Shown: piece after piece, positions 968-26,211 of the stretch | How the letters are laid out: each line of letters begins with the position of its first letter | Numbering within the stretch: position 1 is the first letter of the stretch | Origin: a virus | Strand: one strand, 5' to 3' | Length of the DNA stretch: 33,843 nucleotides | IMG/VR virus record: IMGVR_UViG_3300031463_000020 | Coordinates: 1-33,843 of that record | Notes under the pieces: generated by a model | What the model saw: the letters and a program-made list of their open reading frames with translations, nothing else | The model's database searches: none | What the model was told of the DNA's origin: nothing | Made by a program: the position numbers and the translations under genes

Positions 968-1023
968 AGTCATCACCTCCCCTCTAGCCTGTCCTGCTTA
1001 AACGGGTCAAGCCCGTAAAAGCC

Positions 1024-3172: not shown

Positions 3173-3239
3173 TTTCCCTCCTTGAAGCGTGGAGCTAAAC
3201 CGACATATTCCACGTTTCCTCCATTATAGAATATTTATT

Positions 3240-8561: not shown

Positions 8562-8593
8562 ATTTTAGGAAGAAATAGGGGAAAGGTTATATA
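8562..8593 (-). promoter_or_regulatory. Late-type promoter P8553
   Basis: On the minus strand TATATAAC (8593-8586) is followed by exactly 18 bases and TAAAAT (8567-8562). The ATG of the fibre gene starts 8 bases after the -10 box, so the predicted transcript is essentially leaderless. It is one of seven sites with the same architecture. Confidence 0.7.
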
Positions 8594-8595
8594 TT

Positions 8596-8820
8596 TTATG
8601 AGGTGCTGATGGTATACCAGGTATTGTTCCTGCATACCTTGAAAGTATTGGTTGTCGTATTGTAATAAATTCTTCCATTCTCTGCGGTTGGGTCTGATGC
8701 TTGAGAATCGACAACCAATTTGCCATCGGAAGGTATTGTTATCTTGGTTAATTCAGCCTTCCTTTCCAAAGCCTCTATCCGCTTTTCCAATTCCTTTATT
8801 ATTTGAGCGAGTTCATCCAT
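8596..8820 (-). CDS. Short coiled-coil fibre protein
   Basis: A 74-residue protein: residues 1-25 form a heptad coiled coil (LAQIIKELEKRIEALERKAEL) and the remainder is a beta-type segment ending NGRIYYNTTTNTFKVCRNNTWYTIS. That ending is common at the head of phage fibres. It is likely a trimeric fibre adaptor or short tail tip component. It starts just after the stop of the preceding tail gene. Confidence 0.65.
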   Translation of the reverse strand: MDELAQIIKELEKRIEALERKAELTKITIPSDGKLVVDSQASDPTAENGRIYYNTTTNTFKVCRNNTWYTISTS

Positions 8821-8821
8821 A

Positions 8822-9862
8822 CTACTTTAAAGATAAAGAGATTACAGCCTTCTGGCTACCGTCAATATCAATGGTTCTTTTATAAACTCTCTTATAGGAG
8901 TTATCTATATCTAATTCGGGAAGATTTATTTTAAGGCTATCCCCAACCTCGTAATCTAAAATATCGGGGGCTCCATCCTCATGGCGGATGGTCAATTGGA
9001 CTAAAGGAGCCTGATTGTCTTCAAGAAATTTATCCCCCCTATCCTGCAAAGTTTGGCTTTCCTTCACATCAGTCTCCGAGAGTATTCCTTCCAGGAGGCC
9101 AAATGTTTCCCTATAAGTAGTTGAGCTGGTCCTGGTCTCATAAATCCTGTCATCATTAACACCTTCTCCTAAAACGTGAACCTTATTGGTCAAGGACATA
9201 ATAAGTGGTTTTCTGTATTCCCAAGAAAGTATATTCTGATCATCGAAATAGATATTTTCTCTTTGGCTTCCTTTGGTCGGGTAATAAACATTGAATTGCT
9301 TTGAGGTGTTTATCCCAAAATCGAAACCATTTTTTAAATTTTCATTGCTCATTTGCCAGATTTCATATTGAATATCGGCAAAGCGGAAAGTCCTATCTCT
9401 ATCAACCGAGGTCTGGATTGTTCCTTGAGTAATACCCAAATCAGAATAATAGGGATCGCTATCTTGGCTTTCATCTATCAATGTCCATGCAATTAGTCCG
9501 GCATCGGTCGCACTAAATTCCCTTTTTGCACCTGTTCTTCTCTTGGAAAGGATGGTAATAAAATCAACCGCCGCCACGGAAATATTGGTTTCTCCACTTT
9601 CGTTTTTATTGATTTGAAAATCCGAAACCAGACCGTAGAAGATTTTCGTCCCTTCCTTCTGAATCCAGATTTCTCGCTTTCCACCAGAAAAGACAAAAAG
9701 AGGGTCGGTTGAATACTTATCGGCTATCTCCTCGACAGCAAGGTAATCAAGTGAAAATCTGGCATCGGAACCCTTATTCAATTCTTCAATAAAAGAGAGT
9801 GAGCTGTAGGGGAGCTCGTATATCCTATCGTTTGCCAGGTCTTTGACGAATAACTGATACAT
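8822..9862 (-). CDS. Tail-associated protein (Gp37-like)
   Basis: This 346-residue protein follows the distal tail protein, as the tail hub or tail-associated lysin/adhesin protein does in siphoviruses. Visible features are DARFSLDYLAVEEIADKYS, FVFSGGKREIWIQKEGTKIFYGLVSDF and the final strand-rich DILDYEVGDSLKINLPEL. These agree with the ReqiPepy6 Gp37-like/siphovirus tail hub family, which has beta-sandwich domains like gp27 of T4. No enzymatic motif is visible. It starts directly at the end of the distal tail gene, sharing one base with it. Confidence 0.72.
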   Translation of the reverse strand: MYQLFVKDLANDRIYELPYSSLSFIEELNKGSDARFSLDYLAVEEIADKYSTDPLFVFSGGKREIWIQKEGTKIFYGLVSDFQINKNESGETNISVAAVDFITILSKRRTGAKREFSATDAGLIAWTLIDESQDSDPYYSDLGITQGTIQTSVDRDRTFRFADIQYEIWQMSNENLKNGFDFGINTSKQFNVYYPTKGSQRENIYFDDQNILSWEYRKPLIMSLTNKVHVLGEGVNDDRIYETRTSSTTYRETFGLLEGILSETDVKESQTLQDRGDKFLEDNQAPLVQLTIRHEDGAPDILDYEVGDSLKINLPELDIDNSYKRVYKRTIDIDGSQKAVISLSLK

Positions 9863-10695
9863 TAAATTCCGAGATAATGATTTCTATATCTTATGAAGCA
9901 TTTCCCCGTTGTTCCTGAAGTGACAGAAAGTTTCAGGTAATTATTGCCAGCAGCCAGAGTCAAAAAGTCCCCAGTAAATTTACCCCTTACGCTGTTGCCT
10001 GAGGGGTATAGTGTTACCGTGTGGAGAAATGTATCAACGACTATGAAATCATCAGCCGTAGCCAGGTTATAAGTGAGGTCTATAGATTCGCCGGTTGTGG
10101 AATTGGTGAGGGTTGGATTTGTCATTATCCCGTAAAAGGTGATTAACGGATATGCCTTGTAATTTCCAGAATTGACTAGAAAAGTTTCGGATGAGCCATC
10201 TGCTGACATGTCCATGGGTATTTCCATCGGGATTGCCATACCTCCGCCTGAAAATATATTGACTTCATTAATAATTTCATCGCTTGATTGTAGAAATGGA
10301 TACTCAGCTTCAAACTCAACTAAAAAAGGGGTTAAGGTTTTATCTTCTGCCTTCAAGTTTCCAACTACGTTTACAGCTTTTACATCAATCTGAACTGAGA
10401 CATCATTATCTTTTGTGATTTTTAAAGTCTGGACACCTTCAGATAGGATATTGCCAAGAAGTCTTACAAATTCTTCCCTTTGACTGGCTAGGTCTGAAAA
10501 AGACTCGCCCACTATTGCCCATTCGGTACTGAATTTGAATGAGCGGGATTGGGGAAGCGTAATCTTCTTACCCAAAAAGCCACCCTTATCTCGAACCGCG
10601 TAAGAAATAGATGGGAAACCAAGATTTCCGATCGCTGTGCAGAATCTTTTACTATTTGATAGTGGTGTATTGCCTAAAGCAATTTCTGTAATCAT
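9862..10695 (-). CDS. Distal tail protein (Dit-like)
   Basis: This 277-residue protein has the expected two-part layout. An N-terminal beta domain begins with GNTPLSNSKRF and includes TLPQSRSFKFSTEWAIVGESFSDLASQREEFVRLLGNIL, as in Dit proteins that form the hexameric ring at the tail end. A galectin-like C-terminal domain (PLITFYGIMTNPTLTNSTTGESIDLTYNL to the end) follows. It comes right after the tape measure gene and overlaps it by 4 bp. Confidence 0.78.
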   Translation of the reverse strand: MITEIALGNTPLSNSKRFCTAIGNLGFPSISYAVRDKGGFLGKKITLPQSRSFKFSTEWAIVGESFSDLASQREEFVRLLGNILSEGVQTLKITKDNDVSVQIDVKAVNVVGNLKAEDKTLTPFLVEFEAEYPFLQSSDEIINEVNIFSGGGMAIPMEIPMDMSADGSSETFLVNSGNYKAYPLITFYGIMTNPTLTNSTTGESIDLTYNLATADDFIVVDTFLHTVTLYPSGNSVRGKFTGDFLTLAAGNNYLKLSVTSGTTGKCFIRYRNHYLGI

Positions 10696-11438
10696 CTTGA
10701 GTTTCTAAGTTCCCAGGCCAAACGCTGGCCCAATAAAGCCAAATCCACATCGCTATTAATGAACGCATTGATATTGATTGGTTGATTTGTAGTTGTTGTT
10801 ATGGAAGGAACAGGCTCTCTACCTGACAGCATATCTTTGGACAAAACAAATTCCCCCGCATGAAGTATCGCCAAACCCGATTGTCCTACCCATCCTCCGG
10901 TATCGAATGAAACTAACGGGATTTTGGGGAGATTCAACCCATTCCATTTAAAACCAGCTATCTTTTTGCCTGCGACATCGACACCGGGGATGTCAATTTT
11001 GATTCCATTAATTGCATCAATAAAGGTGTTGAACATGCCGATTATGGAATTGATGCTGTCTGAAAAGACCTTTTTAATTCCAGTCCACAATTCGGTCATA
11101 ATTTTACTGACAGAGGTCTTTGCCGTATTGAATGCATTAACAACTGTTGTCCATAGATTGGTGAAAAATGTTGTTATTGGTTTCCAGTTCGTCATGACTA
11201 GGGTAGCAGCAGCTCCAATGGCAGCAGCAATCAAAATTACCGGAAGGGAAACTCCGATAAATGTAAGCATGGCAGCTGTAGCGGCCACAATCGAGATAAG
11301 AAGTATTCCGCCAATGGCACCGGCGATTGCTTCTAAGGCTACCTTATGTTCAGAGAGGTATATAATCGTTCCTCCTACTATTTCACCGAATTTCCCATAA
11401 TCCTGACCAAGGTTTATTACATATGCATCGAGGGTCAT
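10692..11438 (-). CDS. Tape measure protein, C-terminal part
   Basis: This 248-residue frame carries the membrane-like segments typical of tape measure proteins (IAGAIGGILLISIVAATAAMLTFIG and VILIAAAIGAAATL), a helical part, and the C-terminal signature GWVGQSGLAILHAGEFVL. It is in the same reading frame as the preceding 256-residue part; a single TAG at 11459-11457 and 6 further codons separate them. A GGGG lies 3 bases before the ATG at 11438, so separate initiation is possible but weakly supported. Confidence 0.75.
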   Translation of the reverse strand: MTLDAYVINLGQDYGKFGEIVGGTIIYLSEHKVALEAIAGAIGGILLISIVAATAAMLTFIGVSLPVILIAAAIGAAATLVMTNWKPITTFFTNLWTTVVNAFNTAKTSVSKIMTELWTGIKKVFSDSINSIIGMFNTFIDAINGIKIDIPGVDVAGKKIAGFKWNGLNLPKIPLVSFDTGGWVGQSGLAILHAGEFVLSKDMLSGREPVPSITTTTNQPININAFINSDVDLALLGQRLAWELRNSR

Positions 11439-11456
11439 GTTCCCCTGGACTAAATT

Positions 11457-12227
11457 CTATGTATCCGTCGCAAGGTTTATAAATTTATCTAATAAAGGTT
11501 CAAGGGCTTTGTCAATCAATCCCCCAATGGATTCTTCCAAGTTGTCTAACGTATTTTTTAAGATTTCCAGCTTTCCTGGAAGGGTTTCCCCTGCTGCCCT
11601 TGCGCTTCCACCAAATTCTGTTTGCAATTCCTTGAGAATGTATTTCTGTGCATCTAAAGACTTACCACTCTCAACCAGCTTCTTAACCATTTCGGTTTGG
11701 GCTTCGTTAAAGTTTACACCTACACGTCTTAGTGCTGTAACTCCTAAAATGGGGTCTTGTAAAGCCTTACCCACCTGTATTGCAGAAGAATTCAAATCCT
11801 GCTTTAATGCGGTGGATACATCCATAACTGCTTCAAGTGTTTGAGGAAAAGTGTCTTTACCTATGTTGGTAAACGTTAGAAGTAGATTTTCAGCTCCTAA
11901 TACTGCTTCATCAGAATAAGTGGTTACAGTACTTAAACTAGATGCTAGTCCTAAAGCCTGTTCCTTTGTTACACCGGCTATTCCCCCAGTGGACTTCAAA
12001 ACAGTTTCAAGTTGCTTGACTACCTTTTGGCTTTCCTCAAACGCACCTACTGATCTGATCGCCTCAGCCGTCAGCCCTGCCAAAGCTGCACCAGAAACAA
12101 TTGCTGCATTTTTGAAACTATTGCTTAGAAGATCACTAAGCCCCCCTGCCTCTTTACCGACTTTCTGGATTTCTTTTGAAGCTTCATCTCTGGCTTTTAA
12201 AACAATTTCTAATATCCGTTCCTCCAT
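11457..12227 (-). CDS. Tape measure protein, N-terminal part
   Basis: This 256-residue protein is mostly helical, with a typical start (ILEIVLKARDEASKEIQKVGKEAGGLSDLL), a short hydrophobic segment (AAIVSGAALAGLTAEAI) and the phage tail tape measure core (GLASSLSTVTTYSDEAVLGAENLLLTF, ALQDPILGVTALRRVGVNF). It sets tail length and is ejected with the DNA. The in-frame TAG at 11459-11457 interrupts it. With the following part it would span about 510 codons, short for the family and implying a short tail. It has its own late-type promoter but no Shine-Dalgarno site upstream of the ATG. Confidence 0.8.
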   Translation of the reverse strand: MEERILEIVLKARDEASKEIQKVGKEAGGLSDLLSNSFKNAAIVSGAALAGLTAEAIRSVGAFEESQKVVKQLETVLKSTGGIAGVTKEQALGLASSLSTVTTYSDEAVLGAENLLLTFTNIGKDTFPQTLEAVMDVSTALKQDLNSSAIQVGKALQDPILGVTALRRVGVNFNEAQTEMVKKLVESGKSLDAQKYILKELQTEFGGSARAAGETLPGKLEILKNTLDNLEESIGGLIDKALEPLLDKFINLATDT

Positions 12228-12267
12228 GAAATTTGATTTTTTAAAAGGTAAGCTCTATGATTAACTC

Positions 12268-12299
12268 ATTGTAGTAACCCGCCTATTCAAAGTTATATA
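12268..12299 (-). promoter_or_regulatory. Late-type promoter P12227
   Basis: TATATAAC (12299-12292), 18 bases, TACAAT (12273-12268), then GAGTTA. The predicted start near 12261 gives a leader of about 34 bases before the tape measure ATG. The -35 box lies immediately in front of the divergent 12302 gene. Confidence 0.68.
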
Positions 12300-12301
12300 A
12301 A

Positions 12302-12565
12302 ATGACAGGGGTTCAATGCACCAATTGCTTGCAGTATAAAATTCAAAGAAGGTCGGATATTATCGGCGGAACTGGAGCATTAATGAGTGCCTTCGGCTTT
12401 TTTCTAATACCCTTCGTTATCGGTATCCCAATAGTTATATGCGGTTTAGCGGCATTAATTTATGGCTTGACGATTCGATTCACCAAGTATGAAAAATATA
12501 TCTGCAGGAACTGTAAGAAAATTTACTCGGCTCTGGAATACAAAAGACTAAGAGTTATCGCTTAG
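12302..12565 (+). CDS. Zinc-ribbon membrane protein, reversed accessory gene
   Basis: This 87-residue protein has CTNC near the N-terminus and CRNC near the C-terminus flanking a long hydrophobic hairpin (LMSAFGFFLIPFVIGIPIVICGLAALIYGLTI). Both ends can meet on the cytoplasmic side to form one zinc ribbon. It is the only rightward gene inside the leftward head-to-lysis region and ends overlapping the chaperone reading frame by 11 bp. That is the signature of a moron gene inserted between tail genes. No Shine-Dalgarno site precedes its ATG; TATATA just upstream could serve as the -10 box of a leaderless transcript. Possible roles are superinfection exclusion or another membrane-directed host-change function. 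Confidence 0.65.
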   Translation: MTGVQCTNCLQYKIQRRSDIIGGTGALMSAFGFFLIPFVIGIPIVICGLAALIYGLTIRFTKYEKYICRNCKKIYSALEYKRLRVIA

Positions 12566-12776
12566 CTTTACCTTTCTCCTTCTCCGCCTTAGCTTTCCCT
12601 TCAAGATAAAGCATGCTAAGAACAACCCAATCGGCAGGCTGTTGTTGAAGTTCGGTATAGGTAATTCCCAGTGTCTGACAGAGATGTACTTCAGTCATTT
12701 CGTCGGGAAGATGTCGGGCATTATCACTGTAGAAGGCTTTGAATACTTCTGTCTTTAAGAAGTCCCCCTTTTTTTG
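12555..12776 (-). CDS. Tail assembly chaperone, T-part reached by -1 frameshift
   Basis: This frame has no early ATG but stays open from the A7G5 run to a TAA at 12557-12555. It encodes about 70 residues including VFKAFYSDNARHLPDEMTEVHL and a basic C-terminus (KAKAEKEKGKAKR). It follows the G-like chaperone and precedes the tape measure gene, exactly where long-tailed phages place the T part of the G/GT pair. It would be made as a fusion to the first 110 or so residues of the 13102 gene. An internal ATG exists but would give only a 47-residue fragment. Confidence 0.75.
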   Translation of the reverse strand, partial: QKKGDFLKTEVFKAFYSDNARHLPDEMTEVHLCQTLGITYTELQQQPADWVVLSMLYLEGKAKAEKEKGKAKR

Positions 12777-13102
12777 TCAATTTTCAAGTCTTTTGTGAGT
12801 TCGTCAATTTTGTCTTTAATGCATTGGCCATCAGGAATATCCATCTCATGAAGTGTTTTGGCAATATCAGTTGCTTCAGTTCCATCCGGTAAAAGGATTT
12901 TTACAACCAGCATCTCCATTGCTTTTCGGGACCCGACATACAAAACATCGCCTGTTATATCATTTTTTGCTTGCTGGGTGGAAGGGTCAATTTTTATTTG
13001 GGCGGCTACATATTCTTGAAGATCTTGGAATTCCCCCCATGACAATTTGGGCTTTAGGTAGACTTTGTAACCTCCTGGGGTTTTGAGTTCGATATATTCC
13101 AT
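12755..13102 (-). CDS. Tail assembly chaperone (G-like)
   Basis: This 115-residue protein is located between the tail tube gene and the tape measure gene. It has a beta-type start (YIELKTPGGYKVYLKPKLSWGEFQDLQEY) and a helical end (ATDIAKTLHEMDIPDGQCIKDKIDELTKDL), consistent with tail assembly chaperones that coat the tape measure protein before tube polymerisation. The C-terminal codons run through the slippery site. Its start overlaps the stop of the tail tube gene. Confidence 0.75.
   Translation of the reverse strand: MEYIELKTPGGYKVYLKPKLSWGEFQDLQEYVAAQIKIDPSTQQAKNDITGDVLYVGSRKAMEMLVVKILLPDGTEATDIAKTLHEMDIPDGQCIKDKIDELTKDLKIDKKRGTS
12764..12775 (-). promoter_or_regulatory. Slippery run for -1 frameshifting (A7G5)
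   Basis: On the minus strand seven A (12775-12769) are followed by five G (12768-12764). In the G frame this reads AAA AAA AGG GGG. A -1 slip on the lysine codons enters the open T frame 4 codons before the G stop. A homopolymer at the end of the upstream chaperone gene is the usual place for this recoding. Confidence 0.65.
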
Positions 13103-14052
13103 TAAGTAAGATTGGTGAGCAAATTGGTCACAACCACATTCAAGAGTTTGCTGGTTGCGGTATCATAAACTCCCTGAAATTCGATAGTTAGCAAGTTGTA
13201 GTCTTCCCTGAGAGGTGTTTCCGCTGAGGTAAATACGGCTTTGGGTATGGTCATATCGAACTTATTATTTGAGGCGCTACCTATTACATCGCCGGTGAGT
13301 ATAAGTTCAACCGACCTTTCCGTTTTTCCCAGATAGTCAGTAATGAAAGCAGCGGTTGTTGAATCAAGATATAATTCGACCTTACCTTTTACTTCGGATG
13401 CCTTAACATAGTTATATGCAGGGTCATTAGTGGCATTTAGTGCGTGTAAGACCTCCAATCCGTTTATGTATTCGATTTCAAAGTTCTCAACCTCTCCTAT
13501 GGCTGTTCCCCCCAGCTTGATAGAAACATCTTTCCAATTATAGGGACGTGGTGTGGTGTAGGCAGCAGTTATCTTGGAAGCCGTTGCCTGGGATTTTCCT
13601 TTTACTCCGAAAACGAACTTAACGCTTTCTCCTGCTTTTCCGCTTATCTTGAAATTGGTAACTAGGCATCCCGCAAACCTTTTGACGTTTTGGTCGATTG
13701 CCTGCTCGATGGTGAAGCTGGGTTTAGACTCCTGCTCAGTTATGGTATGCTCATAAACTGTACTTTCTCCTCCTTTGAGAGCGGAATTAACAGCTCCCAG
13801 GGCTCCCAGAATGAAATAGGCTGGATAATCGGGCATAAAATCCAGCGTGAACTCCCCCTCGTGTTTTTGGGCTCCAATATATGAATTTATGTTTTTAGCT
13901 AGTTGGGCTTTGAGTTCTTGGTTGAACTTAATATCGAGGTCTGTTTTGATTCCACCAGAGAAATCAACTGGAATAGATTTATCGGGAACAACAGCAGTCC
14001 CCCATGCGGATTCTTTCTTGAACGATATTTGATTTAAAACCCCCGTACTCAT
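13102..14052 (-). CDS. Major tail tube protein
   Basis: This 316-residue protein has the signature start of many phage tail tube proteins (LNQISFKKESAWGTAVVPDKSIPVDFSGG). Beta-strand-rich segments follow, including EGEFTLDFMPDYPAYFILGALGAV and WKDVSIKLGGTAIGEVENFEIEYING, and a Thr/Val-rich end. It polymerises around the tape measure to form the tail tube. Its ATG overlaps the stop of the preceding small gene (ATGA). Confidence 0.82.
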   Translation of the reverse strand: MSTGVLNQISFKKESAWGTAVVPDKSIPVDFSGGIKTDLDIKFNQELKAQLAKNINSYIGAQKHEGEFTLDFMPDYPAYFILGALGAVNSALKGGESTVYEHTITEQESKPSFTIEQAIDQNVKRFAGCLVTNFKISGKAGESVKFVFGVKGKSQATASKITAAYTTPRPYNWKDVSIKLGGTAIGEVENFEIEYINGLEVLHALNATNDPAYNYVKASEVKGKVELYLDSTTAAFITDYLGKTERSVELILTGDVIGSASNNKFDMTIPKAVFTSAETPLREDYNLLTIEFQGVYDTATSKLLNVVVTNLLTNLT

Positions 14053-14204
14053 ATTTCCTTAGTTTTATTCTTTTTTTCCTTTACCTCCTCGAAATCAGGG
14101 TGGTTGATTGGTTGTTCAACTTTATATTCCTTGCCTGGTTCAAATGTGCCCAGATAGGGAATGTTCACTATCTCATTACCTGTATATTTATATCGGTACC
14201 TCAT
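14049..14204 (-). CDS. Small protein before the tail tube gene
   Basis: This 51-residue protein starts MRYRYKYTGNEIVNIPYLGTF and ends in a Lys/Glu-rich tail. It has no cysteines or membrane span. The pattern of a short beta-rich part with a charged end resembles small phage accessory proteins near head-tail joining genes (for example DUF7210-like proteins), but I do not assign it firmly. The ATG at 14204 lies 10 bases after a late-type -10 box and has no Shine-Dalgarno site. Its stop overlaps the tail tube start. Confidence 0.65.
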   Translation of the reverse strand: MRYRYKYTGNEIVNIPYLGTFEPGKEYKVEQPINHPDFEEVKEKKNKTKEI

Positions 14205-14214
14205 AGCCTAACTC

Positions 14215-14246
14215 ATTCTATAAAGGAGCTACCCCTTTGTTATATA
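14215..14246 (-). promoter_or_regulatory. Late-type promoter P14204
   Basis: TATATAAC (14246-14239), 18 bases, TAGAAT (14220-14215), then GAG and TTAGG, 10 bases before the ATG of the small gene. It precedes the tail tube and tail chaperone genes. Confidence 0.68.
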
Positions 14247-14249
14247 TTT

Positions 14250-14651
14250 TTAGCGGTTAATGCGTTTGTATGCATCAATGGTTATTTCGACAACCTTTAC
14301 AGGGACTTCCCTTTCTGCGCTTCTCCAAATGCCCTTAGAGGGCGTGGAATAATCGCAGGTGTCATTCAGGGAAACATGGCTTTCAAGTTTGTCTATAACC
14401 AGGTCTGCTATGCTTCTTAGGATCCCCTCTGCATCGTTTGCGCTGTCCAATTTGTAATAAAGTCTGATGATATGGCTATAGCATCGTCTATTGGCTGCCG
14501 TATCGTTTGGTACGTTCTGGTGACTTATCGAAGAAACCGTAGCACAGGGATATTTAAGAAGCTCAGCCGGTTCTTTGCTGTAAACCGCCAAAAGCTCCGT
14601 AATTTCGCTTAATAAACTAACAATGGCATATGAAATGGCTACGTAACTCAT
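14250..14651 (-). CDS. Tail terminator / head-tail joining protein
   Basis: This 133-residue protein has a helical start (AISYAIVSLLSEITELLAVYSKEP) followed by strands and a Cys-containing middle. Order and size match the tail terminator of siphoviruses (the slot of lambda gpU), between a HK97 gp10-like protein and the tail tube. I see no diagnostic motif, so the call rests on position. Confidence 0.6.
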   Translation of the reverse strand: MSYVAISYAIVSLLSEITELLAVYSKEPAELLKYPCATVSSISHQNVPNDTAANRRCYSHIIRLYYKLDSANDAEGILRSIADLVIDKLESHVSLNDTCDYSTPSKGIWRSAEREVPVKVVEITIDAYKRINR

Positions 14652-14652
14652 A

Positions 14653-15132
14653 TTACCCTGCTAAAATTGAAACGATATTTCCCAATGCCTCCTTCATAAA
14701 ATTGACCATAATTGGTTGCGATTCGTCTCTCGCCCTTTTAAAAAACAATTTTCCCTTTACACCCCTTACAGCTCGGGCAAATATCCACTGCCCGTTTTTC
14801 TTCCAGGCCAGGACTTTGGCTCGGATTGGCCTGATCATCCTTCTGCTTTTTCCATAAATTCCTGTTCCATACTCCTGATAGGGAGCATATTCGATATTCG
14901 TTCCCACTTTGGCGATAACATTGTTACCCTGGGCTTCTGCCCGCTGGGTGGTAATGCTTCCCCGTAGAACTGTATATTGAACAGGGGCATAGCTTTTCGC
15001 TTTTCCCTCGACTGTAAAAGCTGTTTTATTTAGGGCATCTTTTAAATTGCCAATTACTATCTCGGGGCTTCTTTCAAACAAGTCTTCCAGTTCTTTTCCC
15101 CCAATTACTTCAACCGATAAGTTGTAGTTCAT
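14653..15132 (-). CDS. HK97 gp10-like tail completion protein
   Basis: This 159-residue protein carries the family pattern: VEGKAKSYAPVQYTVLRGSI, then EYAPYQEYGTG followed by basic residues (YGKSRRMIRPIRAK). This APV-x-TG-x-LR-x-SI and YA-x-Y-x-E-x-GT arrangement is well known for gp10/minor tail proteins that finish the head-tail junction. It overlaps the upstream connector gene by 4 bp. Confidence 0.85.
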   Translation of the reverse strand: MNYNLSVEVIGGKELEDLFERSPEIVIGNLKDALNKTAFTVEGKAKSYAPVQYTVLRGSITTQRAEAQGNNVIAKVGTNIEYAPYQEYGTGIYGKSRRMIRPIRAKVLAWKKNGQWIFARAVRGVKGKLFFKRARDESQPIMVNFMKEALGNIVSILAG

Positions 15133-15437
15133 ATTACTTTTTCAGCGACCATCCTTTGATAATACGCCAGGCTGGTATCGTAAACCGTAGGGACACCACG
15201 GATAATATATTCATCATCCCCGCTTTTCAATTTGTCTGCATTTTCCAGGGTTACAGGCTGGTAAACAAAGACTTCATAAGTGGCATAAGCGGGAAGTTCG
15301 GGATAGACCGCTAAAATATCCGTCTGTGCAGGAAAAATAGTGCTATCAAGCCCAGTAATAACAGCAGTCGGATCGTATTCTTGGTTATTTCCTGTTTTAG
15401 TAAGTCTGTAAACATCAACGGTATGGGTAGGTAACAT
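15129..15437 (-). CDS. Head closure (stopper) protein
   Basis: At 102 residues it is mainly beta-type: THTVDVYRLTK at the start, TTIFPAQ-like and DKLKSGDDEYIIRGVPTVYDTSLAYYQRM near the end. This matches the head closure/phage head-tail adaptor type by size, by order (after the gp6-like connector and before gp10) and by its N-terminal strand pattern. It acts at the portal exit to hold packaged DNA. Confidence 0.65.
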   Translation of the reverse strand: MLPTHTVDVYRLTKTGNNQEYDPTAVITGLDSTIFPAQTDILAVYPELPAYATYEVFVYQPVTLENADKLKSGDDEYIIRGVPTVYDTSLAYYQRMVAEKVI

Positions 15438-16001: not shown

Positions 16002-16034
16002 TGTTAATTTTTAGATGGGCTTCCTTTTTAAAGA

Positions 16035-19000
16035 CTACCTACCGCTATTATATAGATTGCCTGCATTTCTATTATATAAATTACCTTTCCTACTAAACAT
16101 TGCTAACTTGCGTTCATAAAGTTTGCCGGGCTCTGGAGAAGGAGATGGTGAAGCGCTGGGACTTAAACTGGCCGATGGCGACAATGAAGCTGATGGACTT
16201 AAAGAGGCTGATGCTGACGCTGACGGACTCAAGGATGCACTAACCGATGCACTGGGGGAAAAAGAGGCCGAAGGAGATATAGAAGGACTAACTGAACCGG
16301 ATGGCGAAATGGAGGCACTCACGCTAGCAGATGGAGAGATTGAAGCTGATGGACTAACGCTGGATGATACTGAAGAAGAGGGACTTATGCTGGGACTAAC
16401 GGATGCCGATGGAGAGATAGATGGAGATACACTAGGACTTACACTGGGACTCACTGAGGGAGAAGGGCTAATACTGGCTGACGGGGAAATGGAAGCGCTG
16501 ACGCTGGCAGAAGGCGACAAACTTCGACTAACTGACGCACTGGGTGAAAGCGAAGCTGAAGGTGAAAGAGAACGAGAAACCGAGGCAGAGGGACTTACAC
16601 TAGGTGATACGGAAGGGCTTACTGACGCTGACTCTGGCGGTATAGAAGGACTAATAGATGCTGAAGGGCTAATCGAGGCTGATACCGAAGGAGAGACAGA
16701 TTTACTTACCGATGCCGACGGACTAATTGAGGGAGACACACTGGAAGAAACTGAAGGCGATACAGATGCACTAATAGAAGGACTGATGCTTGCCGAAGGG
16801 CTTACTGACGGAGATACACTTGGCGAAACCGACGGACTTATCGAAGGTGAAACGGATTTAGATACAGATGCCGATGGGCTTATTGATGGACTAACAGATG
16901 CAGATGGTGAAACCGACGCTGAGACAGACGCCGAAGGTGAAATAGATGGTGACACTGAGGGGCTTATGGAAGCGGAAGGTGAAAGACTGGGACTTACAGA
17001 TGGACTAACTGAAGGCGAGACAGAAGGTGATACCGATGGACTCACACTAGCACTAGGAGACAGGCTTGGTGAAACGCTTGGGGAAACACTGGGGCTTACT
17101 GAAGGACTCACACTTCTTGATACTGAGGCACTTGGGGAAATGCTGGGACTTACCGAAGCTGATGGTGATTTAGAAGCAGAAGGACTTATCGATGCCGATA
17201 CACTTGAACTTGGACTTACACTAGGACTTATTGAAGCGCTTGGTGAAACTGACGGACTAACTGATGGACTTACACTAGGACTTACCGAAGCAGATGGGCT
17301 TATCGACGGTGAAACAGATGAACTTGGACTAATGGAAGGTGATACCGATGCCGATGGTGAAATCGACGGACTAACTGATGCTGAAGGACTTATCGATGGA
17401 GAAACCGAAGCGCTAGGACTAATCGATGCACTTGGAGAAATACTGGGAGATACACTAGCTGATGGAGAAATTGAAGGAGATATTGATGGTGAAACAGATG
17501 CGGAAGGACTAACTGACGCACTTGGACTTATGGATGCTGATGGACTGACGGATGGTGATGCGGAAGCTGAGGGAGATATACTAGCAGATGGTGATATAGA
17601 GGCCGATGATCCTCCACCTGCCGCAGTAGTAAAACTCCTTGTAGTAGCCCATGCCCCCCAAGTATTACTTCCAGATGGGTCAATAGCTCTTACTTTCCAG
17701 TAATAAGTAGTGGAAGCAGCCAGTCCTGCCTCTGCCTGAACTGCATAGGTTATTTCATTTCCTGAAGGCCAAGGGTGAGGGTCGCCTGTTCCTGTAAAAT
17801 GAGAGGGGGATTCGGTGGATGAGAGGACATCAAGGAGAGGTGTAGATCCAAACTTAATTTCCATTACCACCGCACCCGTATCTTCAGTACCACTAAAACT
17901 CATATCAACAGTAGTATCGTTAGTATTCTTAAACTCAGTTGAGATTTTATAATCATTAGCAGCATCAACAGCTTCAGAAATTATGGTAAATCCACTACCC
18001 GCAGTACAGGCTGAATTATAAGATGGGGCAAAACAACCGTAGGTGGCATTTGATGTACTTCCAAAAGCTCCTAAAGTTACAGATAAAGAGCTTGCACCTG
18101 TATTACGACCTACTTGATTTTGAACAACTCCTTGGTTCGTTGCTGTATCTACGTTAGTAAATTCATCAACAACAACAGTACATCTATCTTGAGTCTGTCC
18201 TGAATGATCTGTAATAATAGTTCCAGAACCACTACTGGCAGGTATTCCTCTAAAGACTGTTAATCTAGCTCTACTACTACTGGCATCATCAGGTAAAACA
18301 GTATTTACCTGTGTCCAAGAGGTACTAAATCCAGTAATAGTAGGAATGTTTGGATCAGTGTTTGTTCTTAACCCTGAATGAACTGAAACTACATAAAGTT
18401 TTCCTGCTGTAACTGAAAATGAAGATGTCTCATAAGATGAAGCCTGGGTGTCCGTACTTCCCCATTGAAGTTTGCTTGCAACACTAACTGTAGTAGGGAA
18501 ATTAACATTAGAAACTTGTACCTCATACTCCACTTCATCTGCTTCTGTATCTGTTCCTGTAAAGGTTAAGGCTGGGGTTACACTTACTCCTGTTGCGCTA
18601 TCGGCTGGAGTACCTAAAGCAGTTGTGGGGGAAACATTAGCCGTAAAGATAAGATAGGATAATGCACCATCTTCTCCGTTATTACTGCCAGTACAGGTAA
18701 TTGCTGTCGAACTTAAAGCGGTTGTTCTTGTAGCAGTTGTGTGAGTATGTGAACCAGCATTAACCTCAAGATCTTCAGTAGCATTTGCCCAAGTTTTTGA
18801 AGTGGTAGTGGCAGTTGCTCCACCAGCTACTGCAATAAACCCCCCATCCGTTGCGATAGTAATTGCTCCCGTTGTGAGGGGAGAAGTAGCATCCATGTCG
18901 GTTGACCCATTTCCCCCCGTTGAAGAATAAACAGCATCAGCAACATCATAAACAGAAATGTGGTTTGTTGTTGTATCTACATCTGCTCCAAAAGTAACTG

Positions 19001-19265
19001 CCACTGTAGCAGTATTTCCTGTAGGATATTTAAGATAAAAGGCTCTGGCATATACAACCCCGTAATTTCCTTGCGTACCAGCACTCATAGCCGAACCACC
19101 CAGAGTACAGGAATTTATTGTTGCACCAGATAATTCTGAAGTTACTAAAACTACAACAGTTCTATCTGGGTGGGCTGTACCGATAGATACATTTGAGTAT
19201 GTTGCTACTTTAGATGAAGAAGCTACGCCTGCTGGATTATCAGTCCTTGTAATTGAAACTGCCAT
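16035..19265 (-). CDS. Giant Ser-X repeat structural protein
   Basis: This 1076-residue protein has an N-terminal 215 or so residues of beta-rich Thr/Gly/Ala sequence ([22 protein letters not shown], then phage-decoration-like strands). An Ig/fibronectin-like segment follows ([27 protein letters not shown] and [18 protein letters not shown]). Next come about 490 residues in which nearly every second residue is Ser, with Pro, Ala, Val or Ile between ([11 protein letters not shown] type). The basic tail carries GNLYN twice. It lies between capsid and connector genes, so it is likely a head decoration or head fibre exposed on the virion, with fibronectin-like modules that may bind cell surfaces. 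A late-type promoter and a terminator precede it. The complementary strand has a long open frame that is only a shadow of the repeat. Confidence 0.75.
16047..16078 (-). promoter_or_regulatory. Late-type promoter P16001 inside coding sequence
   Basis: TATATAAT (16078-16071), 18 bases, TATAAT (16052-16047), then AGCGGTAGG. It lies in the last codons of the Ser-X repeat protein, and both boxes fall in codons for a repeated GNLYN peptide. The spacing matches the other late sites, but the coding repeat could create the match by chance. Confidence 0.5.
16133..17609 (-). repeat. Ser-X low-complexity repeat tract
   Basis: This is the DNA of the Ser-X tract in the 1076-residue protein, about 1.5 kb. 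The unit is close to 18 bp, encoding S-P-S-X-S-X, with many synonymous changes between copies. There are no exact long tandem copies, which suggests the amino-acid pattern is kept by selection while the DNA has diversified and so resists recombinational loss. Confidence 0.85.
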
Positions 19266-19342
19266 TACCCTACCCTCACTTTCTCCGAGCTAATCTGAAG
19301 CTTATACTTTGAAGAATTTAGAGATGTTTTGTTGATGGCCAT
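19265..19342 (-). CDS. Possible leader ORF before the Ser-X protein
   Basis: A 25-codon frame starts at ATG 19342 and ends with TAA that overlaps the ATG of the 1076-residue gene (TAATG). It would encode a basic Ser/Lys-rich peptide. Such an overlap permits translational coupling. No Shine-Dalgarno site precedes it. It is too short to judge alone. Confidence 0.3.
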
Positions 19343-19366
19343 ACATATTATTTAAGCATTAACAAT

Positions 19367-19398
19367 AGCATAATCAATACAACCAATTATTTTATATA
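19367..19398 (-). promoter_or_regulatory. Late-type promoter P19265
   Basis: TATATAAA (19398-19391), 18 bases, TATGCT (19372-19367). The -10 box is the weakest match of the seven. The -35 box starts inside the T-run of the terminator just upstream, so transcription seems to end and restart at this point, between the 19678 gene and the Ser-X protein gene. Confidence 0.5.
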
Positions 19399-19421
19399 AA
19401 AAATCCCCGCCAAGGCGAGGA
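19398..19421 (-). terminator. Rho-independent terminator after the capsid genes
   Basis: On the minus strand TCCTCGCC and GGCGGGGA pair over 8 bp with one G-T (loop effectively four bases once the closing pair opens), followed by six T at 19403-19398. It lies about 70 bases downstream of the stop of the 19678 gene, ending the head operon. The 19265-19493 gap holds only this terminator, the promoter and the possible leader ORF. Confidence 0.82.
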
Positions 19422-19492
19422 CAAGTTTCTTCTCTTTATTAATTCACTTATTAAAATCGAGGGTGTTGAAAAACAAGTTCAAAATCCTTATT

Positions 19493-19678
19493 TTACTTTG
19501 AAACTTCAGGAGTTTTTACCATTTTGTCCACTTTTGGACTTTTGATTTCTTTTAAAACCCTAACCGAATTTCCCAATGCTTTGGCTTTTTGCTCATCAAT
19601 TTCATATTCCTCTCCGGCAATATATCTTTTGCCCTCAAAGGTTGTTCCTTCTATTACTTTTACGCTTACTTTAGTCAT
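19493..19678 (-). CDS. Small phage protein after capsid gene
   Basis: This 61-residue protein reads TKVSVKVIEGTTFEGKRYIAGEEYEIDEQKAKALGNSVRVL, a pattern seen in small phage proteins found near head genes (a short SH3-like/DUF7210 type). The ATG at 19678 was chosen because GGCGGTGA lies about 6 bases upstream. A GTG at 19744 would add 22 basic residues. It follows the capsid gene and precedes the terminator, so it may be a head accessory protein. Confidence 0.65.
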   Translation of the reverse strand: MTKVSVKVIEGTTFEGKRYIAGEEYEIDEQKAKALGNSVRVLKEIKSPKVDKMVKTPEVSK

Positions 19679-19783
19679 GTATTTCACCGCCTTTCGGCTG
19701 GCTCGTGGTCTCAGCTTTCTTATGTGTTCTGTCCGCTTTTCCACTCACCCTAGAGCCATCAGTTAATTAGATTTTCCCTCGGC

Positions 19784-20929
19784 TTACGAAGCTGCTGTCT
19801 TCAACCATGCATAAGCGTTAGCTTGTTCGGCTAACTTTATGTCGATTCTCTCAACAAACTTCACGGCTGACATATCCTGCTCAAAAAGATTGAGCGCGGT
19901 AGTTCCATCTGTATCGGTAACTGTTGCTTCATCCGATATAGACATGGTTATCTGCTTCCTGTCGCCAAACAACATATAGTTGAAATTGGATAGGGCTACA
20001 AATTTAGTAGATGCTGCCGAATCGCTCGCTGCTGGCAAAGCATCGGATAATTCAACAGGAAGTGTCCAAAGGGTTGTAATGCCGCTTCCGGCTGGCTGTT
20101 GCACAATGTAATCACCAGACAGTGTTGATTTCAGCTTTCTAAAAATATTCAATACTGTGTGATGCATAACATATCGAGCACCGCCTACAGCCTTGCTTTT
20201 AAGTTCATTCTGCATATCCAGAAGATCATCGGCAGTTGCATCAGTAAAGGCATCCTTGGTAGAACCCATTGTTACACCTGTAACGTCTGAACCTTGGAAA
20301 ATACCTTCAGTTGCTGCCAAACCTTTCAAACCCCACTCATCTTCCTTACCGGCCAATGCCTCCGCCGCAAGTATGGTTAACAGATTTACAAGATCCGGGT
20401 CTGCATCTTCCAATAATTCATTTGATATTGGGATAAGTGCAGCCAGTTTTTGAGCCGTTAAGACAACCTCGCTCAAAGTTGCCTTTGAGGAAGTTGCCTT
20501 CGTATTCTCTGAAATCCTATAAGCTGTTACTCCACTTGCGCTGGGAACGTGCTGAGTAAGGCTCTTCATCGGCCAATGCCTGGCTAGTCTTCTGACTACA
20601 CCATAATCATTGGCAACCCTGATAATCTCATTGCTGAAATATTCAGGAACAATGAATCCCCCATCTGCATCGGTTCCCTCGGACATTGCTTTGCGCTCAA
20701 CTTCTGTCAAAGCTTTAGCCCGTGCTCCATCTTTATTCTTGATGGCCTTCACAAATTCTGAGGCTCTTTTCTTATCATCAAGGTCCTCGGTTTTAGTGTC
20801 TTTATCACCACCGAAGATGTCTTTGCGGAGAGGTAATTCGTTTTTAACTTTTTCAAATACCTCTTTGGTAATACCGTTTTTAAGCTCCTCTTTTATATCA
20901 TCGAGGATTTTCTTTGCTTCTTCATCCAT
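19784..20929 (-). CDS. Major capsid protein (HK97 fold)
   Basis: This 381-residue protein has an N-terminal helical, charged region of about 85 residues, the delta domain removed by the protease. The HK97-type core follows: GTDADGGFIVPEYFSNEIIRVANDYGVVRRLARHWPM, then QKLAALIPISNELLEDADPDLVNLL, and a C-terminal part with FVALSNFNYMLFGDRKQITMSISDEA. It builds the icosahedral head. Its start lies directly after the protease stop. Confidence 0.9.
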   Translation of the reverse strand: MDEEAKKILDDIKEELKNGITKEVFEKVKNELPLRKDIFGGDKDTKTEDLDDKKRASEFVKAIKNKDGARAKALTEVERKAMSEGTDADGGFIVPEYFSNEIIRVANDYGVVRRLARHWPMKSLTQHVPSASGVTAYRISENTKATSSKATLSEVVLTAQKLAALIPISNELLEDADPDLVNLLTILAAEALAGKEDEWGLKGLAATEGIFQGSDVTGVTMGSTKDAFTDATADDLLDMQNELKSKAVGGARYVMHHTVLNIFRKLKSTLSGDYIVQQPAGSGITTLWTLPVELSDALPAASDSAASTKFVALSNFNYMLFGDRKQITMSISDEATVTDTDGTTALNLFEQDMSAVKFVERIDIKLAEQANAYAWLKTAAS

Positions 20930-21958
20930 TCACTTCTCACCCCCTCCCACTTTTAAAGTCTTTAATAACCTTAAAGCCAAACCAGTATGTTTATCGGATT
21001 GTCGAAGGTGGATTTGAACGGCTTTTAAGAAGGCCAAAGTATCTTCTTTCACTTCAGGTTGTTCTATTTCGCTTTCAATCAATAGTTGCAGCTCTTCAGT
21101 TTGAGAAATCAATTCGTCAAAAAGGTCTTTGGATATCTCAATCTTTTCTTCCTTTTCTTCCGGAGGTTGAGCTTGTGCTCCGGAGGCCGCCTCAAATTTT
21201 CCGCCATGGTTTTCACAGTGAGTTCGAGCTGCTTCCTTTTCCCAGGTATCTTTGGGATATCTATAAGCCTGTTCGGTCATGGTATCTTGACCTTTGAGCT
21301 TCCCCATAATCACCCGATATTCCTTACCATCGTGTTTCCTCGTAGTGCTTCTGAAGGAATCGTTTTCAAAATCATCAGGATTTCTCAATCTGCATGAATG
21401 CTCTTCAGGATAAGGTTTTAAAACCTCCTCGGCCTTTATCTCCTCAGTCTCTTCGGATTTCTTTTGTTCCTCAATAATTTGGTCTGGGTCAAAACCTTTG
21501 CTTCTGACCATCGTCAATGCATCGGGATTATCAGGAACAAGTACTGCGGAAAATTCATAGAGTTCCCACTCCTTATAAATCCTTCCTCCATCAGGTCTTT
21601 CCTCAGATTCAATTGGCATAAAACCGATTGACCAAGCATTCATATAGCCCTTGCGGTTGAGCTCGTAAATCATGTCTGCTTCGGGGTTTACCCCCTTAGG
21701 GGTAAAGGCAACTTTTGCAATAACCCCGTCATTAGTGACGTTTATCTCTGTGGCTTTTCCGATCGGGGGCCTATCATAACGGTGGAAGGCAGCTACAATC
21801 GGATTTTTCTGGTAGTTCTCCAATAAAACGCCCCCGGGAATAACAACATCATTGCTTCTATCTGGGGTAGGAGTGGAAATCTTGACGTACAAAGTACGCT
21901 TTTCCCCCTCGGCTTTGGTTACTTCGGTCTGTGTATATGTTTTTCGTATTAACTTCAT
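20930..21958 (-). CDS. HK97-family prohead protease with C-terminal extension
   Basis: The first about 160 residues are the protease: NPIVAAFHRYDRPPIGKATE carries the His, NAWSIGFMPIE the Ser, and LYEFSAVLVPDNPDAL is typical of the family. An extension follows with EEHSCRLRNPDDFENDSFRS, RKHDGKEYRVIMGKLKG and EKEAARTHCENHGGKFE, and then a Glu-rich tail with helices. The extension resembles a small Cys/His-containing domain seen in some phage head proteases, and the Glu-rich tail could act as an internal scaffold. A late-type promoter lies only 9 bases before the ATG at 21958. Confidence 0.85.
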   Translation of the reverse strand: MKLIRKTYTQTEVTKAEGEKRTLYVKISTPTPDRSNDVVIPGGVLLENYQKNPIVAAFHRYDRPPIGKATEINVTNDGVIAKVAFTPKGVNPEADMIYELNRKGYMNAWSIGFMPIESEERPDGGRIYKEWELYEFSAVLVPDNPDALTMVRSKGFDPDQIIEEQKKSEETEEIKAEEVLKPYPEEHSCRLRNPDDFENDSFRSTTRKHDGKEYRVIMGKLKGQDTMTEQAYRYPKDTWEKEAARTHCENHGGKFEAASGAQAQPPEEKEEKIEISKDLFDELISQTEELQLLIESEIEQPEVKEDTLAFLKAVQIHLRQSDKHTGLALRLLKTLKVGGGEK

Positions 21959-21967
21959 GCCTAAACG

Positions 21968-21999
21968 ATTGTAGGGAAATCTCTCCCACTTGTTATATA
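21968..21999 (-). promoter_or_regulatory. Late-type promoter P21958
   Basis: TATATAAC (21999-21992), 18 bases, TACAAT (21973-21968), then CGTTTAGGC and ATG. The start codon is 9 bases after the -10 box. The last bases before the ATG closely match those of the portal promoter (CCCTACAATC, then TTTAGG). Confidence 0.75.
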
Positions 22000-22003
22000 T
22001 TTT

Positions 22004-22132
22004 CTAAACACCCGCTTTGTTTTGACAATTGTTATTACAATAATGATTTTTTGACCTATTGAAATCGTAACGGCTTCTTACCCATCTAGTTCGTTCGCTC
22101 CCGCAATAACCGCAATTAAAAGTAAATAACAT
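22004..22132 (-). CDS. Small zinc-finger protein
   Basis: This 42-residue protein has CGYC near residue 7 and CNNNC near residue 32, a CxxC...CxxxC finger with Arg/Asn-rich residues between (RSRYDFNRSKNHYC). It lies between the portal and protease genes, starting 4 bases after the portal stop, with GGAG 8 bases before the ATG. Phages commonly encode such fingers; the function here is unknown. It fills what would otherwise be an empty gap of about 180 bp. Confidence 0.75.
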   Translation of the reverse strand: MLFTFNCGYCGSERTRWVRSRYDFNRSKNHYCNNNCQNKAGV

Positions 22133-22135
22133 AAT

Positions 22136-24085
22136 TTAAACTCCGGGTATAATAACACAGCGACAGTTAGGATGTACGGGCGGAACCATGTTTCCAGTTG
22201 AAAAGGCTTTATCCAAAGGTATGTCTCCATCGGCTTCATTCAGAAGGCATTCGGGATCCACTCGGTCATCACCTGCCGTCAGCCACCTTTTAGTTTTGAC
22301 TACTCCTGATTGGCGGTATCCTTCTAAGGTTCCCTCTGCATAGCCGGCAACAACTTCACTTCTTGCTATCCGGAGTGCTCGCCATTTACTTTCATTATCA
22401 AAAAAATCCCCGATTGTTTCAGCAATGTCTGCTGCGCCTTTGCCTTCCTCAAACGCATTTAAAATCCTTTCCCGCATATCGTCTTTTATGGATTCGGATA
22501 CACTCTCGGCATGTTCCAATCCATGCTTCTCCAACCATGCTTTTGCAAGAGGATTTTCAAGGTCAAAAGAAATTTCGGATTCGACGTGTGTAAGAGCCTG
22601 CTTGCCCCCAAAAGCAAGAGTTTCTTTCAGGGCATCAGATATGGGTCCGACTAAAACTCCTATCCATTCATTCCAGCCGTCAAACAGAAAATGCACCAAA
22701 TCTTTAGCAGCATCCTTGTTCTGCTTTTTATTCGATTTCTCATCCAGCCTTTTAATCAAAAAGGACTTCCTGTCTTTCAGAAGTCCCTCGAAAACATCCT
22801 GATATTCGCTTATCTTTTTCCTGAGATATTTAACCCTCCGTGCAACCAGCTTATCAGACGCGCTTTTCTTCTTTAGCGCTGTCCTTTTCCCCTCTTGGCT
22901 GTTATTGTCTTTTGACGGTTCTGTTGAACCAAACGGGGTTAGGATAAAAGGTTCATCTCCCCAATCGACAGGCTGTTTACCGAGTTCGTCTCTAACCTCG
23001 TTTATTGTGTAATAGCCGGTCTTTAATCCCGACTCCCAGCGTTTAATATCCTGATCGATGTTTTGAGGAACAGGGCTTTCGTAATCAAAGAAATATTCCT
23101 CCTGGTCAAGCCCCCACATCGGAAGATAAAACTCATTAAGCTTGTCAACGATAAATCTAACTTCTGGATCGATAACCCGCTTTGCAAAGATATAATCGGT
23201 TGCCTCGGCATTAGCTCTATTTACATCATCCGTAATTCCCAATACTGAACGGGGCACCCTGAAAAGGGATAATATTTCGTCTCTTGAGAATTTGCGCTGT
23301 TCAAGAAAATCCATCTCTACTGGGGTAAGAGAGACTTTCTCAAATTTCAAGCCCCCGTCCAGAACAGCCACTTTATGTGCATTTTCAATTCCTTTGTAGT
23401 TTGCATCCCATTGTTTCTTAATCCTATTAAAAATATCCTTTGACAAAGTGTTCTCCGTGGAAAGAATCCCCGAAGGTATGGCTGAATTTAAAAATATATT
23501 CCGGTTCCATTTGGAAGCATATGTATCGGCATCTATTGCATAGGCTGCTGCCCGAATAACACCGATACCTCGGTATGGATTAAGTGGATTGAATTTCTTG
23601 AAGTGGATAATTTCATTGGCTTCAAAAGGAACCTTTTCTGCTTTGTCGTTAGTAAAGACATAACCGCCTATAAACTTCTTGGCATCCTTTACAATCTGCA
23701 TCCTATCTGGTCTAAGCGGCCAAATCTCTATAGGAGTTCGATTCCCGCTTCGAACGATATACCAGAATGCGTTACCGTCAAGTTTTAAATACCCTCCCGT
23801 TGCATACAACAAATCGCTAGAAGACATGAAGTCGTTGACGTTTCTAAGAAGCTTGCTAGCCTCATGCTCATCTTCTATTTCTACGTTCTCGCCTTTTTGG
23901 TGTTTCAGATGGAGTTTGGTTGCTGCAACATCATCGACGATAGCATTAACGCAGGCATAAACCCAGCCCGTATAGTAAGCGGAAAGATAATCGTCATCCT
24001 TTCTATCAGGATAGGCAATATTATTAAAAAATCCATATATAGGGCTGTTAACAGCTTTTTTCCGTAAAAAATTAAAAATTCCCAT
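22136..24085 (-). CDS. Portal protein fused to a MuF/SPP1 gp7-like domain
   Basis: This 649-residue protein is long for a portal. Residues about 1-390 are the portal (YTGWVYACVNAIVDDVAATKLHL, DGNAFWYIVRSGNRTPIEIWPLRPDRMQIV, NRANAEATDYIFAKRVIDP). A Lys/Ser linker follows, then about 200 residues of a head morphogenesis domain ending EGTLEGYRQSGVVKTKRWLTAGDDRVDPEC and MVPPVHPNCRCVIIP. That ending is typical of MuF/SPP1 gp7 minor head proteins. The fusion combines the DNA-entry ring with a minor head protein. A late promoter sits 9 bases upstream of the ATG. Confidence 0.9.
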   Translation of the reverse strand: MGIFNFLRKKAVNSPIYGFFNNIAYPDRKDDDYLSAYYTGWVYACVNAIVDDVAATKLHLKHQKGENVEIEDEHEASKLLRNVNDFMSSSDLLYATGGYLKLDGNAFWYIVRSGNRTPIEIWPLRPDRMQIVKDAKKFIGGYVFTNDKAEKVPFEANEIIHFKKFNPLNPYRGIGVIRAAAYAIDADTYASKWNRNIFLNSAIPSGILSTENTLSKDIFNRIKKQWDANYKGIENAHKVAVLDGGLKFEKVSLTPVEMDFLEQRKFSRDEILSLFRVPRSVLGITDDVNRANAEATDYIFAKRVIDPEVRFIVDKLNEFYLPMWGLDQEEYFFDYESPVPQNIDQDIKRWESGLKTGYYTINEVRDELGKQPVDWGDEPFILTPFGSTEPSKDNNSQEGKRTALKKKSASDKLVARRVKYLRKKISEYQDVFEGLLKDRKSFLIKRLDEKSNKKQNKDAAKDLVHFLFDGWNEWIGVLVGPISDALKETLAFGGKQALTHVESEISFDLENPLAKAWLEKHGLEHAESVSESIKDDMRERILNAFEEGKGAADIAETIGDFFDNESKWRALRIARSEVVAGYAEGTLEGYRQSGVVKTKRWLTAGDDRVDPECLLNEADGDIPLDKAFSTGNMVPPVHPNCRCVIIPGV

Positions 24086-24094
24086 ACCTAAAAG

Positions 24095-24126
24095 ATTGTA
24101 GGGGATTGAAGGTCTTTACTTATACA
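24095..24126 (-). promoter_or_regulatory. Late-type promoter P24085
   Basis: TGTATAAG (24126-24119), 18 bases, TACAAT (24100-24095), then CTTTTAGGT and ATG 9 bases after the -10 box. The -35 variant is the most divergent of the set, but the region from the -10 box to the ATG is nearly identical to that of the protease promoter. Confidence 0.65.
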
Positions 24127-26016: not shown

Positions 26017-26211
26017 CTAATTCAATTTTTCCTTGATCTCTGCAAGCAATTTCCGCAATATCTCCAAATCAAGTCTGGGATATTCTTTTAAAACTTTGTT
26101 TTGGTCCCAGATTACAAACATTCTTCCCGGTGTCACCTCAGGATTGGAAAGATAAAACAAATAGACTAAGTTGCGAACCAGTATAAACTTTTCATCAGTT
26201 AGTCCCGACAT
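26017..26211 (-). CDS. Small helical protein before terminase
   Basis: This 64-residue protein reads DEKFILVRNLVYLFYLSNPEVTPGRMFVIWDQNKVL, with a helical C-terminus (RLDLEILRKLLAEIKEKLN). It overlaps the end of the HTH regulator gene by 17 bp, so the two are likely co-translated. I do not recognise the family; in this position it may act with the late regulator or the terminase. Confidence 0.55.
   Translation of the reverse strand: MSGLTDEKFILVRNLVYLFYLSNPEVTPGRMFVIWDQNKVLKEYPRLDLEILRKLLAEIKEKLN

Follow-up and report, generated by a model that had tools for sequence, protein, structure and literature searches.

The window analysed here is a virus record of IMG/VR (IMGVR_UViG_3300031463_000020; 33,843 bases, 59% AT) in which a block of genes running from terminase to fibre lies on the minus strand. 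Six sites in this block share an unusual arrangement, with a short -35 element, a spacer of exactly 18 base pairs (bp) and a TANAAT -10 box. The most probable reading is that they serve as late promoters in a tailed phage whose family occurs in Patescibacteria, the host being assigned from relatives. The candidate reader of the -35 element is a small protein resembling region 4 of sigma factors, the gene of which stands beside the terminase genes. The six sites are listed below with the distance in nucleotides (nt) from the -10 box to the ATG or the length of the leader, the weight-matrix score and the relatives (G numbers) that have a counterpart.

24095-24126, minus strand: portal promoter, TGTATAAG-N18-TACAAT; ATG 9 nt past the -10 box; score 21.1; positional counterparts in G006, G007, G008, G009, G011, G013 and G016-G018.
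21968-21999, minus strand: prohead protease promoter, TATATAAC-N18-TACAAT; ATG 9 nt past the -10 box; score 25.1; counterparts in G006, G007, G009, G013 and G016-G018.
16047-16078, minus strand: head-tail connector promoter, TATATAAT-N18-TATAAT; leader of ~40 nt; score 17.5; counterparts before the homologous gene in G009, G013 and G017.
14215-14246, minus strand: promoter of a gene for 51 amino acids (aa) and the tail tube gene, TATATAAC-N18-TAGAAT; ATG 10 nt past the -10 box; score 24.0; counterparts in G009, G013, G017 and G028.
12268-12299, minus strand: tape measure promoter, TATATAAC-N18-TACAAT; leader of ~40 nt; score 13.3; counterparts in G009, G011, G013 and G017.
8562-8593, minus strand: fibre-like gene promoter, TATATAAC-N18-TAAAAT; ATG 8 nt past the -10 box; score 25.7; counterparts in G009, G011, G013 and G017.

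Direct reading gives a perfect match to TATATAAC-N18-TANAAT at 8593-8562, 12299-12268, 14246-14215 and 21999-21968. There is one mismatch at 16078-16047 and there are two at 24126-24095, where the form TGTATAAG is the commoner one among relatives. With a spacer of 18 bp the window holds six minus-strand sites, and with any other spacer none or one. A weight matrix trained on 14 relatives, with the window excluded, ranks the same six sites as the six top scores on both strands (25.7, 25.1, 24.0, 21.1, 17.5 and 13.3), compared with a best score that averages 9.7 in 200 randomised windows (95% at 14.5). At a score of at least 12, seven sites are found in the window against 0.24 expected in randomised windows, the seventh being an antisense match at + 8347 in the fibre gene. 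An equal frequency in shuffled sequence had been named beforehand as an outcome that would refute the proposal, and it is not observed. The antisense matches at + 8347 and + 30508 lie within coding regions and were treated as chance, and a weak candidate at 26660, ahead of the regulator gene, scored 4.4 and was not called.

The original prediction had described seven such promoters, standing before portal, protease, Ser-X protein, connector, tail tube, tape measure and fibre genes and mostly continuing with TTAGG or GTAGG. Six of them stand, together with their assignment to all of these genes except that of the Ser-X protein. The remaining site, 19398-19367, has three mismatches, which is chance level, falls outside the top 26 matrix sites and has no counterpart in relatives; its 'TATATAA' is the T-tail of an intrinsic terminator-like hairpin (19422-19403) directly upstream. 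Likewise, the homologues of the Ser-X gene in relatives have no motif among the TANAAT boxes listed before their ATGs. The fixed spacer of 18 was borne out by the spacer profiles, both in the window and in relatives, where it is also kept. The continuation past the -10 box proved weak: purines follow directly, with little conserved beyond that. Caution is needed for the connector promoter, which overlaps the 3' end of the Ser-X gene and the box of which partly codes for a repeated GNLYN peptide. The Ser-X protein itself (16035-19265, minus strand; 1076 aa) has a long SPSASVSPS repeat and ends in a duplicated GNLYN, the codons of which form part of this promoter.

Relatives were collected by a search of IMG/VR with the large terminase gene (terL), which returned 22 at 41-68% identity, and alignment added more; their gene calls are plain open reading frames (ORFs). 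Every TANAAT located 4-15 nt before an ATG was taken and no -35 box was assumed. In one phage group, most of these boxes are preceded by TGTATAAG or TATATAAC at a distance of exactly 18 bp. Across 14 relatives the -35 element is present at 56 of 85 boxes, with a chance rate of 2.3% per position, a figure that is only descriptive because the selection relied on a consensus learned from the same genomes. The consensus is AAAA-TRTATAAS-N18-TANAAT, followed by purines, with T3, A4, T5 and A6 of the -35 element invariant. For all six window sites the motif recurs before homologues of the same genes in several relatives, at the stated terL identities of 41-68%. At most ~80 sites lie on the late strand of the records and one on the other strand, a bias of ~60 to 1, and randomised windows yield ~0.07 sites per genome. 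The motif is also present in a relative with 51% GC (L138) and with GC-rich spacers (G030). In the terL tree, the motif phages, a group with A-tract promoters (described below) and three phages with neither promoter type form one clade of 24 with a poorly resolved inner order. Among cultured phages, only distant ones have a related terL, the best at 28% identity.

Two small genes on the same strand are the candidates for the regulatory side of the system.

26195-26497, minus strand: sigma-region-4-like regulator, 100 aa; candidate -35 reader with the reading helix SLQAVHQI.
26017-26211, minus strand: partner protein, 64 aa; conserved W, L and Y in the pattern W..x..VLKEYxRP.

The regulator matches the Pfam family Sigma70_r4_2 at 26.1 bits (cut-off 25.7), and its structural model has a predicted local distance difference test score (pLDDT) >90 in the DNA-binding half. 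The best Foldseek matches are -35-binding sigma domains (probability 1.0, E 0.02), along with LuxR-type domains. Profile and model point to a region-4-like fold, and we infer that the protein reads the -35 element. Sigma region 2 (PF04542) was absent from 15 phage records, with a control that was positive in 10 of 14 genomes; for this reason the regulator is not regarded as a sigma factor, and no complete phage-coded sigma factor was found in these records. A search of 380 Patescibacteria genomes for the regulator gave four weak matches (~E 5e-7) in frames of 124-183 aa. These were taken as host sigma-type genes, so that no prophage copy was found in the 380 genomes.

Homologues of the regulator, mostly with the helix QAVHQI, occur in those motif-bearing records that are long enough to include the locus. 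We scored co-occurrence with matrices that omit each record's own cluster. All 16 records with the regulator carry late-strand sites (1-9 each, with one other-strand match in total), compared with 5 of 33 records without it, and three of these five (G016, G017 and G019) end near the expected locus. The association (Fisher, 6e-9) is overstated by this P value because the records are related; counted by lineage it is 13/13 versus ~2/22. The best single test came from a search with the regulator protein alone, which retrieved two new contigs, L132 and L138, since the motif was predicted there beforehand and both contigs carry it; the terminase of L132 is of a different type. Hence the earlier proposal of a single late regulon with a -35 specificity of its own has good support: the matrix built on relatives, the conserved positions of the sites, the strand bias and the lack of enrichment in a host genome (see below) all agree with it. 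Its suggestion that the sigma-region-4-like protein may serve this regulon gains good support from the co-occurrence (16/16 versus 5/33) and from L132 and L138. The proposal did not include the partner protein, its fusion, the leaderless geometry or those relatives in which the late promoter is a different one.

The partner gene (~65 aa) adjoins or lies near the regulator gene. Its fusion partner is the regulator in G027, G028 and G042 and another region-4-like domain in G001-G005, and such fusion suggests joint action. No Pfam or PHROG family was matched by the partner; structurally it forms part of a low-confidence model, for which there was no fold match.

At 8593, 14246, 21999 and 24126 the ATG lies 8-10 nt past the -10 box, and leaders of ~40 nt follow the sites at 12299 and 16078. 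Therefore, the mRNAs from four of the six sites, in which the -10 box falls within the ~4-12 nt of the start codon that characterise leaderless genes, should be nearly leaderless. In relatives, the commonest distances from -10 box to ATG are 6, 8 and 9 nt. Leaderless bacterial genes have been described with a TANNNT box ~12 nt upstream of the start codon (PMC3160421). The surveyed groups named in the part of that source used here do not include Patescibacteria, whereas in the present case phage and host both show the pattern.

The host evidence comes from one integrated relative, found within a contig of Candidatus Daviesbacteria, where it is flanked by genes encoding pyrophosphatase, a tRNA synthetase and glutamine synthetase. 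As this relative has neither regulator nor motif, the host of the motif-bearing phages is assigned from the family. In the Daviesbacteria genome, -10 boxes are concentrated 4-12 nt before ATG (0.29 per gene, versus 0.06-0.19 further upstream) and Shine-Dalgarno-like sequences are rare (10%). Its leaderless promoters have a TTGACA-like element at 17 bp in 11 of 39 cases and the phage -35 element at 18 bp in none of the 39. The phage motif is not enriched in this genome, with four matches versus six in the reversed control. Because the host shares the spacing of -10 box and ATG but has TTGACA-N17, we conclude that the -10 box and start geometry follow the host and that the -35 element is the phage's own. 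In this Daviesbacteria metagenome-assembled genome (G023, L108-L124), leaderless TTGACA-N17-TATAAT promoters appear common and Shine-Dalgarno sequences few.

We consider it probable that the host sigma factor, together with the sigma-region-4-like phage protein and its partner, drives the six late promoters; we infer the DNA binding, the partner's role, the timing and the use of host sigma. Host RNA polymerase with the main host sigma would read the TANAAT -10 box, and transcription would start at or just before the ATG at most sites, as in leaderless genes of the host. The host sigma is the most likely reader of the -10 box since the phage box stands at the region 4 contact position, its candidate reader consists of a region-4-like domain only, and a search for region 2 in 15 phage records found none. 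The regulator would take over the -35 contact, recognising TRTATAAS at 18 bp versus the host's TTGACA at 17 bp. The partner may be part of the same complex and perhaps frees or reshapes host sigma region 4 or the beta-flap. Provided that expression of the pair precedes that of the structural genes, it would turn on the operons for portal, protease, connector, tail tube, tape measure and fibre jointly.

Several points weigh against this scheme. Taken as a whole, the two structural models reach modest confidence (pLDDT 72 and 67), and every fold match falls short of the E 0.001 level; the helix-turn-helix is also common to LuxR/GerE regulators; and the partner matches nothing known. The co-occurrence could reflect one clade, given that most motif phages belong to a single terL clade that is poorly resolved inside. 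Finally, the assignment to Patescibacteria comes from relatives only and not from the window's own host, and as a host pointer the TraG-like gene of the window gave distant matches only.

The strongest of the other explanations is that the regulator is an ordinary DNA-bound activator (LuxR/GerE- or Ltr-like, perhaps a dimer) that sits at the -35 region and recruits polymerase with sigma region 4 kept in place. LuxR/GerE regulators share the helix-turn-helix fold, and class II activators are also known to overlap the -35 region. However, the element consists of a single short 8-mer without symmetry, kept at one fixed spacing, no direct repeats were found in the regions tested, and there is no conserved TTGACA-like box alongside for sigma to contact; we regard an activator of this kind as unlikely. 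Still less probable is a reading of the sites by a main or alternative host sigma with no involvement of the phage protein. The sites do share their -10 box and leaderless geometry with the host, but the 0/39 count and the lack of enrichment in the host genome speak against a host promoter class, and most related phages that lack the regulator also lack the motif. Chance or base composition in AT-rich intergenic DNA, to which the 59% AT of the window and the one chance find among seven reported sites might point, is refuted as an explanation by the strand bias, by the rate in randomised windows and by the persistence of the motif at 51% GC and with GC-rich spacers.

The closest known logic to that proposed here is sigma appropriation at the middle promoters of phage T4, at which a phage box replaces the -35 element and MotA and AsiA act with host sigma (PMC6755090). 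Both systems have a consensus-like -10 box and a phage box in place of the -35 element; two small phage proteins, here candidates, would act in both, and host sigma region 2 would be needed here as in T4. They differ in that the putative DNA reader is here itself region-4-like, the genes are structural (late), the box stands at the exact -35 position and the mRNAs are predicted to be mostly leaderless. No MotA or AsiA family was among the Pfam and PHROG matches listed for the regulator or partner, and since no relation to either protein is seen, the phage system is not placed in the MotA/AsiA class. The Ltr late regulators of Gram-positive phages act at a late promoter with several upstream repeats (PMC13123087). 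Like Ltr, ArpU and RinA, the present regulator is a small phage protein encoded just before the terminase genes that would drive packaging and structural genes (PMC13123087), but there are at least six promoters here, each with one -35 box. Because Ltr uses upstream repeats and no Ltr-type repeat arrays were found in the promoter regions tested, the system does not fit the Ltr class. Among the 25 best NCBIfam matches listed for the regulator, no Ltr, ArpU or RinA family appears.

Xpf of PBSX is a lone sigma-region-4-like positive control factor for late genes, and we know of no partner protein for it. Its NCBIfam model (NF005385) gives weak matches in 8 of 13 members of the regulator family, and the window protein scores 17.6 bits, far below the cut-off of 136. 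T4 (gp55 and gp33) and SPO1 (gp33 and gp34) each use two small proteins of their own to bring host polymerase to late promoters, which in SPO1 also have an 18-bp spacer. T4 gp55 reads the -10 region instead of host sigma region 2; in contrast, the -10 box is here host-like and only the -35 element differs.

Some relatives have other pairs of region-4-like domain and promoter. G001-G005 lack both QAVHQI and TRTATAAS, and their late genes have an A-tract with CCATAnAATA and an ATG 6-9 nt past the -10 box. In G002 (L037) and G005 (L039), where the ATG follows ~6 nt past the -10 box, 8-9 A-tract/CCATAnAAT sites lie on the late strand versus 0 on the other strand, with 0.2 expected. G025 has the helix KRLQICRM and the element nGGATAAC. 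G042 has YQI in place of HQI and the element TRTATAAA, a case that proves little because the A also occurs with HQI in G016-G018. The evidence is evenly balanced, in our judgement, on whether these Patescibacteria phages have a new class of late switch, a split or fused two-domain factor in which a region-4-like half would replace only the -35 contact of sigma, and in which the reading helix would have changed and promoters been rewritten genome-wide to match (TRTATAAS, nGGATAAC, A-tract with CCATAnAAT). G029 (L088) and G031 (L084-L085) have neither promoter type and show other repeated leaderless patterns, in G029 AGGTATAAT six nt before the ATG.

A literature search on late promoters and gene control in Patescibacteria phages returned no account. 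Very few Patescibacteria hosts are in culture. A regulator-promoter pair identifiable from its sequence alone provides a handle on these phages, one that marks late operons and predicts start sites. The matched reading helices and -35 boxes form a natural series for studying DNA choice by sigma-region-4-like domains, and the pair may represent a compact, possibly orthogonal promoter system that is testable in E. coli.

Two further genes of the late block lie downstream of the regulator and partner.

25448-25951, minus strand: gene at the position of the terminase small subunit, with a weak PHROG match; kept before terL in 12 records.
24133-25494, minus strand: terminase large subunit, the query used for finding relatives.

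Other features of the window are outside the promoter system. The tape measure gene (10692-12227, minus strand) is present as two ORFs of 256 and 248 aa, compared with one ORF of 590-770 aa for each homologue from relatives; the stop or frame change around 11440-11460 may be genuine or may stem from the assembly. Between tail genes and back to back with the tape measure promoter, 12302-12565 (plus strand) encodes an 87-aa protein with Cys pairs and hydrophobic stretches. Its homologues are at other places in G006, G013 and G017, and it is perhaps a small mobile gene. A 390-aa protein encoded at 4089-5261 (plus strand), opposite to the surrounding genes, has a hydrophobic stretch and a PTPT-rich linker and no Pfam match. 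The region 1-3200, at the edge of the window, carries tRNA genes for Arg and Thr, an HTH_17 (excisionase-like) protein and a TraG/TraD-like ATPase, and is possibly an integration site or an adjoining mobile element.

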